A stretch of DNA of 64,000 nt from a bacterium (GTDB taxonomy: Bacteria > Desulfobacterota > Binatia > DP-6): NCBI GenBank assembly GCA_026129405.1, contig JAHCID010000006.1, forward strand, positions 186,001 to 250,000, given 5' to 3'. Positions 2,286-9,996 of the stretch are shown here, in pieces. Position 1 is the stretch's first letter. Each line of letters opens with the position of its first letter. The notes under the pieces were generated by a model that saw nothing but the letters and a program-made list of their open reading frames with translations, had not been told where the DNA came from and did no database searches. Position numbers and translations under genes: made by a program.

Positions 2286-3806
2286 TCATCGTTGCAGCGC
2301 GCGGCGGATCGCCCGCTCGAGCTGGTCGACGTCGTCGTGGGTGTTGTAGAGCGCGAGCGACGGTCGCACGGTGCCTGCGAGGCCGAAGCGATCCATGGTG
2401 GGCTGCGCGCAGTGATGCCCGGCCCGCACCGCGATGCCGTCCCGATCGAGGATACGGCCCATGTCCTCGACAGAAAAGTCGTCGACGACGAACGACACGA
2501 CACCCGCTTTGTCGGGTGCGGTGCCGACGAGATGCAGACCCGGGATGCAGCGCAATGCCTCGGTCGCGTGCGCCAGCAGCTCGCGCTCGTGCCAGGCGAC
2601 GTTCTCCATCCCGAGCTGATCGAGATAGTCGACGGCCGCCCCGAGCCCGACGGCGTCCGCGAGCGTCGCGGTGCCGGCCTCGAAGCGCGCCGGCGGGTCG
2701 GCGAACGTGCTGCGCTCGAAGGTCACGCGATCGATCATGTTGCCGCCGCCCTGCCAGGGCGGCATCGCGTCGAGCAGCGCCCGCTTCCCGTACACCACGC
2801 CGACGCCCGTCGGGGCGAAGAGCTTGTGGCCGGAGAAGACGTAGAAGTCGGCGTCGAGCTGCTGCACGTTCACGGGGAAGTGCGACACGGCCTGCGCGCC
2901 GTCGACCAGCACGCGCGCGTCGTAGCGGTGCGCCATCTGCGCCATCTCGCGCACCGGCACGATGGTGCCGAGGGCGTTCGACACCTGGGTGATGGCGACG
3001 ATCCGGGTGCGGTCGTTGAGGAGCTTCTCGTACTCGTCGACCAGCACCTCGCCGCGGTCCGACACCGGCACGACGCGGATGCGCGCGCCGACCGCCTCGG
3101 CGAGAAACTGCCAGGGCACGATGTTCGAGTGGTGCTCGAGCGTGGTGAGAACGATCTCGTCGCCGGCGCGGACGTTGCGTCGCCCCCAGCCGTTGGCGAC
3201 GAGGTTCACGCCCTCGGTGGTGCCGCGCACGAAGACGATCTCGCTCGGCGACGCGGCCCCGATGAACCGCTGCACCTTCGTGCGGGCCCCCTCGTAGGCG
3301 TCCGTCGAGCGCGCCGCCAGCGTGTGCGCGGCGCGGTGCACGTTCGAGTACTCGTGCGTGTAGTAGTGCGCGATGCGGTCGAGCACCGCCTGCGGCTTGT
3401 GCGTCGTCGCGGCGTTGTCGAGCCACACGAGCGGGCGGCCGTTGATGCGCTCGCGCAGGATCGGGAAGTCGTTGCGGACGTCGCGGACGTCGAAGATGCG
3501 GCGGCCGGTCGGGGTGAGGAGCTTCGGACTCGACGGCGTGCCGGCGGCGCTCTGCGGTCCGGACGCCGTCAGGAAGTAGTAGTCGCGCCCGCTCGCGCTC
3601 GGCGCCGGCACCGGCGAGCCGCCGCCGAACAGCGGCGGGAGGTGCGCGGCCTCGATGCCCACCGGGGGCGACGTCCACGGGGCGTGGCTGCTGCGGAGCC
3701 CCGGAGCCGCCGGAACCGGAGCCCCGCTCGCGGCGCCGCCGGGCAGGGACAGGCCCGGCCGCGGGCCGGCCGCAGCGCCCTGCGGCACCGATGCCGGCGA
3801 CGGCAC
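2286..3806 (-). CDS. SufS-like cysteine desulfurase, encapsulin cargo (catalytic ORF)
   Basis: A PLP-dependent cysteine desulfurase that removes sulfur from L-cysteine. Counting from the GTG at 3806, residues 1-100 are Pro/Ala/Gly-rich and disordered-looking, with a cargo-loading motif (HLPPLFGGG then GRDYYFL). From about residue 103 follows a complete SufS-type domain with LDNAATTHKPQ, the PLP Lys at about 328 (FSGHKL) and the catalytic Cys at about 466 (RAGHHCAQP). Such N-termini mark cargo of family 2 encapsulins. The frame stays open upstream of 3806 past 3938, where it continues the duplicated N-terminal segment, so GTG 3806 may be only an apparent start and the true protein may begin at 4606 after a -1 shift. 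The shell gene lies directly upstream. Confidence 0.9.
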   Translation of the reverse strand: MPSPASVPQGAAAGPRPGLSLPGGAASGAPVPAAPGLRSSHAPWTSPPVGIEAAHLPPLFGGGSPVPAPSASGRDYYFLTASGPQSAAGTPSSPKLLTPTGRRIFDVRDVRNDFPILRERINGRPLVWLDNAATTHKPQAVLDRIAHYYTHEYSNVHRAAHTLAARSTDAYEGARTKVQRFIGAASPSEIVFVRGTTEGVNLVANGWGRRNVRAGDEIVLTTLEHHSNIVPWQFLAEAVGARIRVVPVSDRGEVLVDEYEKLLNDRTRIVAITQVSNALGTIVPVREMAQMAHRYDARVLVDGAQAVSHFPVNVQQLDADFYVFSGHKLFAPTGVGVVYGKRALLDAMPPWQGGGNMIDRVTFERSTFADPPARFEAGTATLADAVGLGAAVDYLDQLGMENVAWHERELLAHATEALRCIPGLHLVGTAPDKAGVVSFVVDDFSVEDMGRILDRDGIAVRAGHHCAQPTMDRFGLAGTVRPSLALYNTHDDVDQLERAIRRALQR

Positions 3807-3938
3807 CGTCGAGGACGGTGCGGTCGCCGACGGCAGCGTCGCCGCCGACGGCGACGGCGGCGCGTGGCGTGCGGCGTCGGGCGCGTCCGGTCTGGTCGTG
3901 GGCAGCTCCCGGATATGCAGCGCGTCGAGCCCCGCCGC
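3551..3938 (-). repeat. Cargo-loading segment, copy 2 (proximal to the catalytic domain)
   Basis: Second copy of a tandem duplication. Read on the minus strand it encodes AAGLDAL...[10 protein letters not shown], a Pro-rich linker, then HLPPLFGGG and GRDYYFL. The DNA shares long exact blocks with copy 1, for example the 20 bases around the DYYFL codons and the AGCGGCGGGAGGTGCGCG block at PPLF. It is in frame with the cysteine desulfurase domain. Confidence 0.8.
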
Positions 3939-4606
3939 CCGGGCCGGGCCGCGAGCGGGCTCGTCGCCGTCTCGGGCCCCGAGGGCCCGAGGAAGTAGTA
4001 GTCGCGCCCACCGATCGCGGGCGCCGGCGAGGCCGGCGGCGCACCGCCCGTGAAGAGCGGCGGGAGGTGCGCGCCGTCGACGCCGACGGCGGGCGCCTTC
4101 CAGGGCGACGCGTCCGGTCCGCTGCGCGTGCCGGGGATGCCCGGCGCCGCCGGGGTGGGGACGCCCGTCACGTCCGCGCCGGGCACGGACGGGCTCGGCG
4201 CCGCCATGCCCGGCACGACGACGCCGGGCACGGCCGAGACCGCCGTGCCGGCGATCGGCACGCCGCCCGTGGCGGCGGCCTGCGGCGCCGCCAGCGGCGA
4301 CGACACCGGTGCCGACTGCGGCACGTGGCGCTCGGCGTCGGGCACGTCGGGCTTCGTCGCCTGCAGGTGCCGCGCCTGCACCGCGTCGAGCCCCGCCGCG
4401 GCCGGCGGGGCACTCACCTGGGACAGGACGCTGCCGGGGGAGGCCCCCCCCGGCATGCCCTGGGTGGGCATCGCGGCGAGGAGGCTCGCCGCGATCCGCT
4501 GCACTGCCGCGTCGTCGACCTGCGCCAACGACCCCCGCCCCGCACCGCCCACCGCGTCCGCCGGGGCCGACGTCAGCCCGACCACCCCCGGCTCACTCGT
4601 ACGCAT
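3569..4606 (-). CDS. N-terminal cargo-loading domain of the encapsulated desulfurase, out of frame with the enzyme
   Basis: The ATG at 4606 overlaps the last 14 bases of the encapsulin gene. The frame encodes a helical stretch ([17 protein letters not shown]), a long Pro/Gly/Val-rich disordered region and the first cargo-loading copy ending in [13 protein letters not shown] at about 3970. Beyond about 3940 the frame becomes Arg-rich and meaningless because the sense continues in the desulfurase frame. A single-base insertion at about 3940-3985, or -1 ribosomal frameshifting, would give one protein of about 770 residues spanning 2286-4606 with two cargo-loading segments. An assembly indel is quite possible, since two other genes here also look frameshifted. 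Confidence 0.65.
3971..4400 (-). repeat. Cargo-loading segment, copy 1 (distal)
   Basis: First copy of the duplication. It encodes AAGLDAVQ...[10 protein letters not shown], a Pro/Ala/Gly/Val linker, then HLPPLFTGG and [12 protein letters not shown]. It is in frame with the ATG at 4606 but one frame away from copy 2. The shift must occur at about 3940-3985, within a run of G and C. Confidence 0.8.
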
Positions 4607-6017
4607 GGTAGTTCCCGACCTCGACGTTCTCGAGGACGCCGAGCGCATCCTCGGTGAGGACCGCGGCCGAGAAGTAGAGCGTCACGAGGTACGACGCCGT
4701 CGAGTACTGATCGATGCCCATGAAGCGCACCGACACGCCCGGCATCTGCTCGCCCGGGATGCCGACCTGGTGCAGGCCGACGACGCCCTGCTTCGGCTCG
4801 CCGACGCGCATCAGGAGGATGTTCGTCAGCCCCGCCGAGTGGTCGCCGCCGGTCCGGTTCACGAGCAGCTTGTCGCAGGGAACGAGCGGCACGCCGCGCC
4901 AGGTGATGAACGGCGAGCCGAACAGGCTGACGGTCGGCGGCGGCACGCCGCGGCGGGTACACTCGCGCCCGAAGGCCGCGATCGCCCGCGGATGCGCCAG
5001 GAAGAAGGCCGGCTCCTTCCACACCAGGGCGAGGAGATCGTCGAGATCGTCCGGCGTCGGCGGGCCGGAGCGCGTCTGGATGCGCATGCCGGGCGCGACG
5101 TTGTGCAGCAGCCCGATCTCCGGATCGTTGATGATCTCGGACTCCTGGCGCTCCTTCATGCCCTCGAAGGTGAGGCGCAGCTGCTCGCGCAGCTGGTCAT
5201 GCACGTCGTTGTAGAGGTCGGTGACGCGCGTGTGCAGGCGGATCACGGCCTGCATCACGTTCAGCTGGTACTGGCGCGGCGCCTCGTCGTAGTCGACGAA
5301 GGTCCGCTTCAGCTCCGGCTCGCCCTCCTGGTACGACGCGATGTCGATGCCGGCCTCGCCCTGATCGTTGTGCTTCACGCCCTGCTCCTGGTGCAGGCGC
5401 AGCAGCTCCTCGAACTGGCCGCGCAGCGACGGCGACTCGCCCAGCAGCGTGCGCAGCCGCGCGCGCTCGAGGGTCAGGAACACGGTCGGCGTGAGCGTCT
5501 GGGCGGTGGTCGTGTGCCGCCAGTCGCCGGCGAGCGCCTGCTCGCCGAAGTAGTCGCCGTCGCCGTAGAGCGCGAGGCGGAGCTTCTCGCCGTGGGCGTC
5601 GGTGGTGCTGATCTCCACCTTGCCCTTCACGATGACGTAGAGCTTGGCGCCCGGATCGCCCTCGCCGTAGAGCACCTCGTTGGCGTTGTGGCGCTCGTCG
5701 AAGAGCAGACCGGCCACCGCGTCGAGCAACGCCGGCTCGGCGTTGCGGAAGAGCGGCAGCGAGCGCAGCGCCTTCGGATCGAGCTGCGCGTGATCGCCGT
5801 CCAGGCCGGCGACGATGCGCCCGCCCTGCTTCAGGACGATGCGCCGGCGGTTCACCTGATACGTCCCGCCTTCGATGTTCACCCACGGCAACAGGTGCAG
5901 CAGCCAGCGGGGAGTCACCGCCAGCATCTGCGGGACGGTGAGCGTCGGGTTGGACAGGGTCCGCGCCGCGCGCACCGTCAAGGTGTGGTTGCCTACCGGT
6001 CGTGCTGCTTCCGCCAT
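4593..6017 (-). CDS. Family 2B encapsulin shell protein with cyclic-nucleotide-binding domain
   Basis: This 474-residue protein combines a HK97-fold family 2 encapsulin shell with an inserted cyclic-nucleotide-binding domain. The N-arm (1-84) includes [20 protein letters not shown]. The CBD spans about 85-212, with a phosphate-binding cassette [14 protein letters not shown] (Glu159, Arg167). The HK97 core spans about 235-474 ([50 protein letters not shown]). The length and insertion match CBD-bearing family 2B shells, which self-assemble into icosahedral compartments. The ATG at 6017 is preferred because GGAGGAG lies eight bases upstream. The next gene, overlapping by 14 bases, encodes the cargo. 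The CBD ligand cannot be read from sequence. Confidence 0.95.
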
Positions 6018-6151: not shown

Positions 6152-7108
6152 TCAGATTCCGAGTCCTCCGTCGAACAGATCGTCCCGACTTTGCGCCTGG
6201 CTCACGTAGCTGCCCGGAGGCACGCCGCGCGTGAGCCAGACGTTCCCACCGATGCTCGACCCCCGACCGATGGTGATGCGTCCGAGGATCGTCGCCCCCG
6301 CGTAGATGGTGACGTCGTCCTCGACGATCGGGTGCCGTGGCCGCCCCTTGATGGGCCGCCCGCTCTCGTCGACCGGGAAGCTGCGCGCCCCCAGGGTGAC
6401 GCCCTGGTAGAGCCGCACGCGCTGCCCGATGACCGAGGTCTCGCCCACGACGACGCCCGTGCCGTGGTCGATGAAGAAGCTGCCGGCGATGTTCGCGCCG
6501 GGATGGATGTCGATGCCGGTCGCCGCGTGCGCCAGCTCCGCGATGATACGCGGGATGAGCGGCACCCCGAACTCGTAGAGCTGGTGCGCGAGGCGATGGT
6601 GCGTGATCGCGGCGATGCCCGGGTAGCAGAAGATCGCCTCGTCCATGCTGGTCGCCGCGGGGTCGCCCTCGTACGCCGCGCGCACGTCGCTGCCGAGGAG
6701 CGCGCGAATCGCCGGCAGCCGCCGCGCAAGCTCGCGGACGACCTCCGCCGCGCGCCGCCCGCACACGACGCAGTCGCCGTCGCCGTGCGTGCACGCCGAC
6801 AGGAGCCCGCGGCGCACCTGGTCCTGGAGGCGCGCCATGGTGTCCTCGAGCCGCAGGGCGATGGCGTGCCGGATGCCCTCGGGCGTGCGGTCGGTGGTGC
6901 CGAAGTGCGCCGGGAACAGCACCGCACGCAGATCGACCAGCACCCGCTCGAGGGCGTCGCGCGAGGGCAGCGCCTGGCGCGGGTTGCGGCGCACGCGCTC
7001 GGACAGGAGGTCGACGTTGGCGTCGGTGAGCGCGTCGATCACGTGGGCGAGCTCGCCCGCACGCGGCGTGCTCTCCGCGCGATCGGAGATGACTTTCAGT
7101 GCCGTCAT
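6152..7108 (-). CDS. cysE: Serine O-acetyltransferase (EpsC/CysE type)
   Basis: This 318-residue protein acetylates L-serine with acetyl-CoA, the first committed step of cysteine synthesis. A long helical N-terminal region (to about 190) includes [19 protein letters not shown]. The left-handed beta-helix hexapeptide region follows, with [24 protein letters not shown] (catalytic His) and [11 protein letters not shown], ending in a C-terminal tail. The ATG overlaps the stop of cysK (ATGA), and AGGGAG lies upstream. Genes for this enzyme are often found next to family 2 encapsulin-desulfurase loci, where they would supply cysteine to the cargo enzyme. Confidence 0.95.
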
Positions 7109-8169
7109 AGTGGAACTCCCTGCGCGTCGAAGATGCCCTCGAACAGCGCGGTGCTGAGGTAGCGCTCGCCCGAATCGGGGAGCACGGTGACGATCGTCTT
7201 GCCGGCGAACTCGGGACGCCGCGCCAGCCGCACCGCCACCGCCACCGCCGCGCCGCACGAGATGCCGGCGATGATGCCCTCGTCGCGCGCCAGCCGGCGC
7301 GCGTAGGCGATCGCCTCTTCGTTGGTGACCTGCTCGATCCGATCGACGACCGAGAGATCGAGCGCCGCGGGCACGAAGCCCGCGCCGATGCCCTGGATCT
7401 TGTGCGGGCCGGACACGATCGGCTCGCCCGCGCGCTGCTGCGTGAGCACCGGGCTGTTGGCGGGCTCGACGGCGACCGAGACGACGTCGTGCCCGCGCGT
7501 GTGCTTCAGGTAGCGCGAGACGCCCGTGATCGTTCCGCCCGTGCCGACGCCGGAGACGAACACGTCGATCCGCCCACCCGTCTGGGCCCAGATCTCCGGG
7601 CCGGTCGTGCGCTCGTGGATCGCCGGGTTCGCCGGGTTCTCGAACTGCTGGAGCAGGACGTAGCGATCGGGGTCCGACGCCACGATGCTCTCCGCACGGG
7701 CGACCGCGCCCGCCATGCCCTTCGAGCCCTCGGTGAGGACGAGCTTGGCGCCGTAGGCGACGAGCAACTTGCGCCGCTCGACGCTCATCGTGTCGGGCAT
7801 CGTGAGTGTCAGCGGGTAGCCGCGGGCGGCGGCGACGAAGGCGAGCGCGATCCCCGTGTTGCCGCTCGTCGGCTCGACGAGCTCCTTGCCGGGGACGAGG
7901 ACGCCGCGGCGCTCGGCGTCCCAGACCATGGCCGCGCCGATGCGGCACTTCACCGAATACGCGGGGTTGCGGCCCTCGACCTTGGCCAGGATGGTCGCCG
8001 GTGCGCCGTCCGGGATGCGATTCAGGCGGACCAGCGGCGTGCCGCCGATCGACTGCGCGTTGTCCTCGAACCACGACGGCGCGAGCGCCTCCGCTCCCTG
8101 GGCGGGCGCGGACCCGAGCCCGAGCGGGTAGCTGCTGTCGTGGGACTGGATCGACGGGGTCTGGGCCAT
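7105..8169 (-). CDS. cysK: Cysteine synthase A (O-acetylserine sulfhydrylase)
   Basis: This 354-residue PLP enzyme makes cysteine from O-acetylserine and sulfide. The PLP Lys is Lys74 in [22 protein letters not shown] binds the substrate, and GTGGTITG plus the C-terminal [11 protein letters not shown] complete the fold. The N-terminus is about 30 residues longer than the shortest CysK proteins. GGAGG lies five bases before the ATG. It is the first structural gene after a cysteine attenuator-like leader and overlaps cysE by 4 bases, so synthesis and later desulfuration of cysteine would be under one control. Confidence 0.95.
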
Positions 8170-8224: not shown

Positions 8225-8265
8225 CAGAAAGCAGAACGCCCACCGACCCTCGCGGGTGGTGGGCG
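8225..8265 (-). terminator. Intrinsic terminator / attenuator in the cysK leader
   Basis: On the minus strand, CGCCCACC (8265-8258) pairs with GGTGGGCG (8244-8237), and ACCC (8257-8254) pairs with GGGT (8249-8246). This gives a 12-bp stem with one bulged C and a GCGA tetraloop. The transcript then reads TTCTGCTTTCT, moderately U-rich. It lies about 60 bases before the cysK ATG, where an attenuator rather than an end-of-gene terminator is expected. The opposite strand lacks a U tract. Confidence 0.75.
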
Positions 8266-8323
8266 CTATCGCGTGATCCGCCGCGGCGCCTATCCGGCCG
8301 CGGGCGGGCACGTGCCCACCACC
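8255..8323 (-). promoter_or_regulatory. Alternative antiterminator pairing in the cysK leader
   Basis: GGTGGTGGGC (8323-8314, within codons 14-17 of the leader ORF) is an exact 10-base complement of GCCCACCACC (8264-8255). The latter is also the 5' arm of the downstream terminator, so the two structures exclude each other. GGGCACGTGCCC at 8306-8317 is also a perfect 12-base palindrome overlapping the first arm, which could form a small hairpin or an operator. Confidence 0.7.
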
Positions 8324-8364
8324 GCGGTCGTACAACACAGGGCCGACTGTCGGATCGAACTCAC
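8290..8364 (-). CDS. Cysteine leader peptide, 24 codons
   Basis: GTG at 8364 to TAG at 8290 encodes a 24-residue peptide with tandem cysteines at positions 10-11 (SALCCTTAVVGTC, residues 7-19) and a third at 19. No Shine-Dalgarno precedes it, but a promoter with its -10 at 8379-8374 puts the likely start site at A8365 or G8364, making the mRNA essentially leaderless. The Cys codons sit about nine bases before the antiterminator arm, as expected of a transcription attenuation leader. Leaderless Cys-rich short ORFs acting as cysteine attenuators are known in mycobacteria. An in-frame GTG at 8382 would add six residues. Confidence 0.75.
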   Translation of the reverse strand: MSSIRQSALCCTTAVVGTCPPAAG

Positions 8365-8373
8365 TGGATGGCT

Positions 8374-8402
8374 AGCTAACACGGCCGCTGTTCCGGCGTC
8401 AA
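8374..8402 (-). promoter_or_regulatory. Sigma70-like promoter of the cysK-encapsulin operon
   Basis: The -35 element TTGACG (8402-8397) and -10 element TTAGCT (8379-8374) are separated by 17 bases in a locally AT-richer patch. The -35 overlaps the stop codon of the upstream FAD/NAD(P) gene. The predicted start falls on the first base of the Cys leader ORF or one base before it. Confidence 0.6.
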
Positions 8403-9892
8403 CCGAAGGTTCGTCGCACGCCGGCGCGCGCACGCTCGAACGGCATCGCGGACCGCATGCCGGCCGCCTGATCCCGCGGCGCCGGCTTCATCCGGCCGTT
8501 GCCGGCCGGCGGTGCCGTCGTCGCGAGCCGCATGGCGAGACGCTCGGCGAGCGCCGCCGCCTCGACGCGCAGCTCGGGCACCGCCGTGTTCTCCCAGAGG
8601 CGCCCCTTGCGCAGCGGCCCGACGAGGAACAGCCGATCGCTCGCGCGACCGGCGGCGTCGAGCAGCGCGCCATCGCCGTCGGTATCGAGGCCGAGGCCGA
8701 AGGCGTCGGGCCGCAGCATGCCCACCTCGCGCAGGGCGACGATGAGGGGCTCCCGCACGCGGGACAGATCCGTGTCCGGCCCCGTGCAGTTGATCACGCG
8801 CCCCACGCGCAGCCGCTCGACGTCGGCGCCGCCGCGGCCGCGCAGCGCGACCTCCATCGCCCCGTCGACCGGCCGCATGCCGAGAAGCCGCGCCGCCCGC
8901 ACGTCGAGCTGGCCGGTGTCGATCGTCGCCTGCACGCCGGCCCAGGGCGCGGGTGCGGCGCGGTGGCGATGGGTCTCCCAGTACGGCCGCAGGTGGCGCA
9001 GCAGACGGGCGCGGGCGCGCTCGTCCAGCGACGCCCACATCGCCGGCGTATCGGCGCGGATCGACGCCAGCACCTCGCGCCAGTCGTGCCCTTCGCACGT
9101 CGCCTCGAGCACTTCACGCCGCAGCGCGCGCACGAGACCCGACGCCGTGCGCGGCCACTCGTCGAGATCGCGGGGCCGCGGGTAGTGCGGCGGCGGCACC
9201 GCCGACTGGCGGTGCGGCTGCGGCAGCAGGCCGCGTCGCGAGACGGCGTAGATCGGCCCGCGGTGCTGCTGCTCCACCAGCCCGAGCACGACGTCGATCA
9301 TGGTGAGGCCGGTGCCGACGAGCAGCACCGGATCGTCGGCATCGACGTCGAGCGCGTCGTGCGCCCACGGGTCGGGGGCGTATCGCGGCGAGGCCAGGCC
9401 CGACGGATCGGCGAGCGCCGGCGTCGCGGGCGGAAAGTTGCCGACGGCGAGGATGGTGACGTCGCTCGCGAGACGGCGCCCGTCCGCGAGCCGCACCTGG
9501 ATGCCGCCGGCGGCGAGCGGCTCGAGCCCGACGGCCTCGCCCGGGATGCGCTCGAGCTCGGTCCACGAGGGCGCGTCGGCCTCGGCCTCCGCGAGGACCT
9601 GGCGGAGGTAGTGGCCGAAGGCGAGTCGGGGCACGAAGCTCGCGCCGGTGGTACCCGGCTCTCGGCGCCGCATCCAGGCGAGGAAGTGGTCCTCGTCGTC
9701 GGCGAAGGCGCTCATGCGCCCGGCGGGGACGTTGAGCGAGTGGGCGCGACAGCGGGTGCCGTAGGCGACGCCGCCCGAGAACGGCCCGTGCCGCTCGACC
9801 AGGAGCACCCGCCCGCGCAGGCCCCGGCGCAGGAGATGCGCGGCGACCATGGTCCCGCTGAACCCTCCGCCCACGATCGCCACCGTGCTCAT
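8399..9892 (-). CDS. FAD/NAD(P)-binding protein (NAD_binding_9 type)
   Basis: This 497-residue protein starts with a Rossmann dinucleotide motif (VAIVGGGFSGTM), followed by HSLNVPAGRMSAF, VTILAVGNFPPATPA and a second dinucleotide site (LVGTGLTMIDVV). Late motifs are INCTGPDTD and LFLVGPLRKGRLWE. It resembles flavin-dependent proteins annotated as FAD/NAD(P)-binding or YdhS-like, with unknown substrate. The ATG at 9892 has GGAGG five bases upstream; a GTG two codons earlier is less likely. A TATTCT -10-like hexamer lies at 9928-9923. It precedes the cysteine/encapsulin operon on the same strand, so read-through is possible. Confidence 0.85.
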   Translation of the reverse strand: MSTVAIVGGGFSGTMVAAHLLRRGLRGRVLLVERHGPFSGGVAYGTRCRAHSLNVPAGRMSAFADDEDHFLAWMRRREPGTTGASFVPRLAFGHYLRQVLAEAEADAPSWTELERIPGEAVGLEPLAAGGIQVRLADGRRLASDVTILAVGNFPPATPALADPSGLASPRYAPDPWAHDALDVDADDPVLLVGTGLTMIDVVLGLVEQQHRGPIYAVSRRGLLPQPHRQSAVPPPHYPRPRDLDEWPRTASGLVRALRREVLEATCEGHDWREVLASIRADTPAMWASLDERARARLLRHLRPYWETHRHRAAPAPWAGVQATIDTGQLDVRAARLLGMRPVDGAMEVALRGRGGADVERLRVGRVINCTGPDTDLSRVREPLIVALREVGMLRPDAFGLGLDTDGDGALLDAAGRASDRLFLVGPLRKGRLWENTAVPELRVEAAALAERLAMRLATTAPPAGNGRMKPAPRDQAAGMRSAMPFERARAGVRRTFG

Positions 9893-9996
9893 CGGCACCT
9901 CCTCATGCGAGATGGTTCCCTAGAATAGCGCTTGACGGGGACGATCGCGAGTCGCGCGCGCGCCGTGTCCGCCGCTGCGGCAGGTGCGCGAGTCAA

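Follow-up and report, generated by a model that had tools for sequence, protein, structure and literature searches.

The region between an FAD/NAD(P)-binding protein gene and cysK in the window (the whole 64,000-nucleotide stretch of DNA analysed here) raises the question of whether a short ORF with tandem cysteine codons and the hairpin that follows it regulate the genes downstream, among them that of an encapsulin. Judged from its sequence, the region is likely to act on the cysK-cysE-encapsulin-cysteine desulfurase operon by ribosome-mediated transcription attenuation, with Cys-tRNA as the signal sensed. The original prediction of a near-leaderless, cysteine-responsive terminator attenuator is retained here in its main lines, while the masking of the antiterminator at the stop codon and the emphasis on encapsulin are given up.

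Leader and operon in the window

The following features were identified in the leader:

8397-8402, minus strand: -35 element TTGACG, overlapping the TGA stop codon of the upstream gene (8401-8399)
8374-8379, minus strand: weak -10-like element TTAGCT, with 2 of 6 matches to TATAAT
8290-8364, minus strand: near-leaderless leader-peptide ORF, GTG to TAG, MSSIRQSALCCTTAVVGTCPPAAG; a Cys-run leader is likewise placed in genomes G015 and G105
8332-8337, minus strand: putative regulatory tandem Cys codons 10-11, the last ribosome positions with arm 2 free
8326-8330, minus strand: arm 1, CGACC, pairing with GGTCG in arm 4 (8248-8244)
8314-8323, minus strand: arm 2, putative antiterminator strand GGTGGTGGGC, counterpart of the covarying 2:3 pairing in relatives
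8298-8309, minus strand: segment GCCCGCCCGCGG, which in the predicted fold may pair locally with arm 2 into a competing hairpin
8255-8264, minus strand: arm 3, GCCCACCACC, part of the 5' strand of the terminator
8236-8266, minus strand: predicted intrinsic terminator hairpin with GCGA loop, -25.8 kcal/mol; terminators also follow the leaders of relatives
8226-8235, minus strand: interrupted U tract

The elements originally predicted, namely TTGACG-N17-TTAGCT (8402-8397 and 8379-8374, with a 17-nt spacer), the 24-codon ORF, Cys10-11, Cys19 (8310-8308, minus strand) and the 10-bp pairing, are all present in the sequence where they had been placed. The ORF begins with GTG at 8364, 9 nt past the -10-like element, ends with TAG after 24 codons and is read as M(V)SSIRQSALCCTTAVVGTCPPAAG; transcription would start at or a few bases from its start codon, and translation would accordingly be leaderless or nearly so. 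A standard consensus scan reported no sigma-70 promoter at this leader. TTGAC followed by a near-leaderless Cys-Cys ORF occurred once in the window versus three times in 1.74 Mb of other loci (strands summed). Arms 2 and 3 are exact complements over 10 bp, a match between ORF and terminator arm that only 6 of 5000 dinucleotide-shuffled versions of the ORF equalled, and the whole leader is predicted to fold more stably than its shuffles (z -2.4). Regarding the terminator, the GCGA-capped hairpin agrees with the original description; the stem, given there as 12 bp with a U-rich tail, is predicted to have 13 pairs and a bulge of one base, and the U tract is interrupted, TTCTGCTTTCT lying directly 3' of the hairpin.

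The FAD/NAD(P)-binding protein gene (8399-9898, minus strand) has its stop codon inside the -35 element of the leader, and read-through transcripts from it would also meet the attenuator. The operon downstream of the leader comprises:

7105-8169, minus strand: cysK, cysteine synthase A (TIGR01139, 452.9 bits, cut-off 351)
6152-7108, minus strand: cysE/epsC-type serine O-acetyltransferase gene (NF041874, above cut-off), its start overlapping the cysK stop
4593-6017, minus strand: encapsulin shell protein with a cNMP-binding domain (NF041163, family 2B, 572.8 bits, cut-off 400)
2286-3806, minus strand: SufS-type cysteine desulfurase, encapsulin cargo (TIGR01979, above cut-off)

The shell ORF also matches PF19307 and PF00027, its best NCBIfam model being that of family 2B, and the desulfurase reaches 767 bits against NF041166, under the cut-off of 800 for that model. 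An ORF with rhodanese and metallo-beta-lactamase domains lies downstream of the desulfurase. The desulfurase ORF begins abruptly at 3806 (window 3601-4660, minus strand); an Ala/Pro-rich N-terminal part with a copy of AHLPPLF...GRDYYFL is read from a different frame (ORF 3569-4648), and the desulfurase frame contains this motif once more, so that a frameshift, a sequencing error or two separate proteins are possible. Another cysK of this type, 70% identical, is present in the genome at G000:C6:125786-126757 (L127), 60 kb from the window start, and no Cys-Cys leader was found within 900 bp upstream of it.

A class-wide set of cysteine leaders

Orthologous cysK genes (78-82% identity) in G015 and G105, which belong to the same class as the window genome and to two other families, carry a Cys-run leader and a terminator at the same place. 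The leaders (MNDVSHTTDGTCCCCTEAWEPSRARGCAAFELVS in G015, MNAARLTADDMYGCCTKVRESSCACGCAAVDLGSY in G105) start 8-9 nt past the -10 of a TTGACA promoter and are followed by a strong terminator. A profile of three leader peptides was then run over 148 Binatia genomes, followed by a covariance model and by a second model built without the window copy. Counting the window, this revealed 24 elements in 19 genomes of seven families, and conservation of the cysteine codons in relatives, which had been set as a test of the original prediction, is thereby seen at the level of the class, in G015, G105 and the wider set.

The majority of the elements (18/24) precede a gene for a sulfate-binding protein, three precede cysK-cysE and one cysT, while one lies before genes for an outer-membrane-type protein, metY and metX, and one has no clear target. 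The single element before met genes (G015:C66, L253) is followed by the outer-membrane-type protein gene, which has no NCBIfam match, then by metY and by a gene that joins a metX-like part to a methyltransferase-like domain. The shared design consists of an ORF that is near-leaderless in nearly all cases and a Cys-codon run of 2-5, broken in a few members, 12-20 codons ahead of the stop; T-[KEQ]-A-R-[EG]-x-S is commonly kept ahead of the stop. A GC-rich hairpin and a T tract follow the stop codon in nearly every member, usually as GGCCCGGGAGG...CCTCCCGGGCC or a variant with the T tract, 22-30 nt past the leader stop. In 19 of the 22 leaders examined TTGAC- stands at the same distance from the start, and in 19 of the 22 the start codon lies 7-13 nt past the -10. 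A model built from 19 elements recovered four members outside it, G104 (E-value 1.5e-11), G003_C103 (6.7e-9), G011 (4.6e-5) and G119 (1.3e-3).

The window genome holds a second, canonical copy at G000:C2:216.6-216.9 kb (L202, L228, L256), with the leader MTMLPAATCCCCISARGNSLAGRCALVAVS, ahead of a 69-aa ORF, a sulfate-binding protein gene and ABC transporter genes. The window copy itself was missed both by the covariance model and by the peptide profile when these were built without it, so that it is placed in the set by its position, geometry and pairing order and not by its sequence; on these features it reads as a diverged counterpart of the Binatia-wide set. Nothing convincing was found in 395 genomes drawn from the phylum outside Binatia, and none of the ten loci tested matched an Rfam family at the gathering score.

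Several candidates were rejected. Cys ORFs before cysK in proteobacterial genomes (L034, L039, L044, L068, L070 and others) show neither a terminator nor a promoter geometry of the matching kind. In the window genome the pattern TTGAC...TG...TGYTGY was matched 45 times, against 65 times for a reversed control, and only the window site and C2:216.8 kb were accepted, L193 and L205 being dismissed on reading. Profile matches in G083, G088, G115, G123 and G125, as well as G057_C82, G038_C16:202 kb, G001_C139, G005_C55 and G006_C254, lie inside genes or are without a terminator. Low-scoring covariance-model matches (G026, G019, G033 and G512; 45-55 nt, E 2e-4 to 0.01) were left out, that in G026 being on reading a bare terminator hairpin. 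Separately, a locus in G069 (L239, ~1455-1700) has the design of the Cys attenuators with other residues: an MFS-like transporter gene is preceded there by a near-leaderless 20-codon ORF (MSGTEVRLVPNSTVVVVLLN) containing a run of Val and Leu and, past this ORF, by a GC-rich hairpin with a T tract.

The link to encapsulin, put forward originally as a point of interest, did not hold. G015 and G105, which carry the leader, have no family 2 encapsulin match; four encapsulin genomes were found in the class and a leader precedes cysK only in that of the window, being absent from the other three (G050, G096 and G097). The link is therefore incidental, with one of four encapsulin loci having a leader and most elements apparently controlling sulfate uptake.

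Pairing scheme, ribosome position and alternative readings

Covariation of the leader arms in relatives, a check proposed along with the original prediction, was found at class level for two pairings. Among 18 distinct aligned arm sets, with 500 shuffles as control, 95% of cells are paired in 2:3, with five double-change cells (0/500 shuffles), and 1:4 has 12 double-change cells (0/500 shuffles). One covarying 2:3 position (C-G/U-A/A-U) falls on the third, synonymous base of a conserved Ser codon. A trp-like 1:2 protector hairpin showed no double changes, with 418 of 500 shuffles scoring at least as high, and was ruled out. At pair 14-41 arm 4 tracks the leader, being A-U in nine members and G-C in eight, and the G-C members are left with an A.C mismatch in the terminator. 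These eight come from at least three families, but six belong to one (f1), which means fewer events than cells; the shuffle controls leave shared ancestry in, and the G-C state is mostly that of one clade. Since both 2:3 and 1:4 covary and arm 4 follows the leader, the alignment supports an antiterminator formed by nested pairing of the leader ORF with both terminator strands. In the window this nested order is retained with a different sequence, CGACC/GGTCG outside (5 bp only, the counterpart of the covariation-supported 1:4 of relatives) and GGTGGTGGGC/GCCCACCACC inside.

According to the mechanism we propose, a ribosome with enough cysteine would pass the Cys codons and cover arms 1 and 2 while RNA polymerase makes arms 3 and 4, and the terminator would form and stop transcription. 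When cysteine is short, the ribosome would stall at Cys10/11, leaving arm 2 free, and arm 1 too for stalls upstream; the free leader arms could then pair with arms 3 and 4, so that the terminator would be delayed or blocked and the operon read. We followed this in silico by moving a masked 30-nt footprint along the ORF one codon at a time and folding the transcript as far as the start of arm 4. In the window, arm 3 was paired with the leader with a probability of 78% for a ribosome at or before Cys10 and of 70% at Cys11; this value fell to 15-31% from Thr12 to Ala20 and returned to 77-79% at the last codons. The drop comes just past Cys11, and the Cys codons thus mark the limit up to which a ribosome leaves the arm free, in agreement with the original claim that a ribosome stalled there leaves the antiterminator arm mostly free. 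The companion claim, that a ribosome at the stop codon masks the arm, is contradicted by the same scan, as the footprint there covers nt 55-84 versus nt 42-51 for the arm; in this model masking occurs while the ribosome is in transit.

In four relatives (G015_C66, G103, G003 and G000_C2) the equilibrium fold flips to the terminator while the ribosome moves through the Cys run, the probability of the terminator being 0-3% before the flip and 83-98% after it. The flip is less clean in other relatives, and in many members the ribosome-free fold is already the antiterminator. The full-length window leader at equilibrium is 92-99% terminator at every ribosome position, and with a stall at Cys10 the best 2:3 structure is 6.8 kcal/mol worse than the best 3:4 structure; antitermination in the window would therefore have to be kinetic. 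The local hairpin competing for arm 2, the presence of only two tandem Cys codons, the weak -10 and the interrupted U tract also count against an attenuator in the window.

These folds, the two Cys codons and the diverged sequence would fit a decayed attenuator, formerly like the sulfate-operon copy and now a constitutive terminator or a leaky leader with regulation lost or weak. We consider this improbable, as the 10-bp 2:3 and 5-bp 1:4 pairings are both kept despite a wholly changed sequence, and the position of the arm still switches exactly after Cys11. Translational control, in which the Cys ORF would bring ribosomes to the cysK start or expose that start and the hairpin would be no terminator, has a precedent in the mycobacterial near-leaderless Cys ORFs, termed translation attenuators (PMC4633059, and a passage of PMC13236596 citing Canestrari 2020). 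However, the regular hairpin and T tract past the stop, covariation that is between leader and terminator arms, and the position of the cysK GGAGG (8178-8174), ~60 nt past the hairpin and outside both pairings, make it very unlikely here. It is equally hard to believe that the hairpin merely terminates the FAD/NAD-binding-protein gene (stop at 8399) and that the Cys ORF arose by chance, for while the stop of this gene, which has the same orientation, lies in the -35 element, and the model and the peptide profile built without the window miss this copy, the same layout recurs before orthologous cysK in G015 and G105, shuffling seldom yields the 10-bp match and promoter and start are spaced as in relatives. 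A cysteine-sensing transcription attenuator remains our preferred reading of the window leader.

Comparison with known systems

At the level of the class, we lean towards a cysteine regulon of Binatia in which near-leaderless attenuators pair their leaders with both terminator strands and the cysK-encapsulin operon is one target. An apparent single oddity of the window would thus become part of a class-wide system of sulfur control. Seven families of a largely uncultured class share one design ahead of genes for sulfate uptake and cysteine synthesis, and this recurrence offers a testable model of sulfur control without a known regulator in Binatia. Our literature search, of incomplete coverage, returned no description of such elements, whether from Binatia or from upstream of genes for sulfate transport.

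The window operon is of the known family 2 encapsulin desulfurase kind, in its 2B variant; such operons, with desulfurase, serine acetyltransferase, rhodanese and cysteine synthase, have been described (PMC8049743, PMC8346489). No attenuator is mentioned for them in PMC8049743, and of the four such Binatia loci only one has the leader.

There is hardly any record of transcription attenuators that respond to cysteine and use an intrinsic terminator; they are known by prediction before cysS in Rhodobacterales, while the mycobacterial ones are called translational. The Rhodobacterales motif, uORFC-8-2, has been proposed to act by ribosome-mediated transcription attenuation and shares with the Binatia elements tandem Cys codons in a short upstream ORF and an intrinsic terminator (PMC8632094). 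It differs in controlling cysteinyl-tRNA synthetase, in its class and in its two stems, the first of which contains the Cys codons, and no leaderless start was noted for it (PMC8632094). The window leader is set apart from it, as described, by its place before cysK instead of cysS and by having no Rfam match.

The original comparison with mycobacteria is apt as regards leaderless Cys ORFs, since the polycysteine short ORFs there also precede cysteine and sulfur genes (PMC4633059; PMC1262725). It is however a looser analogy than proposed, as the mycobacterial leaders carry the Cys run near the stop and have no conserved terminator (PMC1262725), whereas the window leader has Cys10-11 of 24 codons and a terminator; the mechanism in mycobacteria is given as translational in the relevant passage of PMC13236596 (citing Canestrari 2020).

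With the trp, his and leu attenuators the Binatia elements share regulatory codons, mutually exclusive antiterminator and terminator, and, in the mechanism proposed, the position of the ribosome as input. Unlike these, they are near-leaderless, show no 1:2 protector covariation and have the stop codon downstream of arm 2; the design would thus join near-leaderless translation with transcription attenuation. The leader, moreover, pairs with both terminator strands, 1:4 and 2:3, a scheme in which base pairs of the terminator appear to be sacrificed to preserve pairing with the leader.
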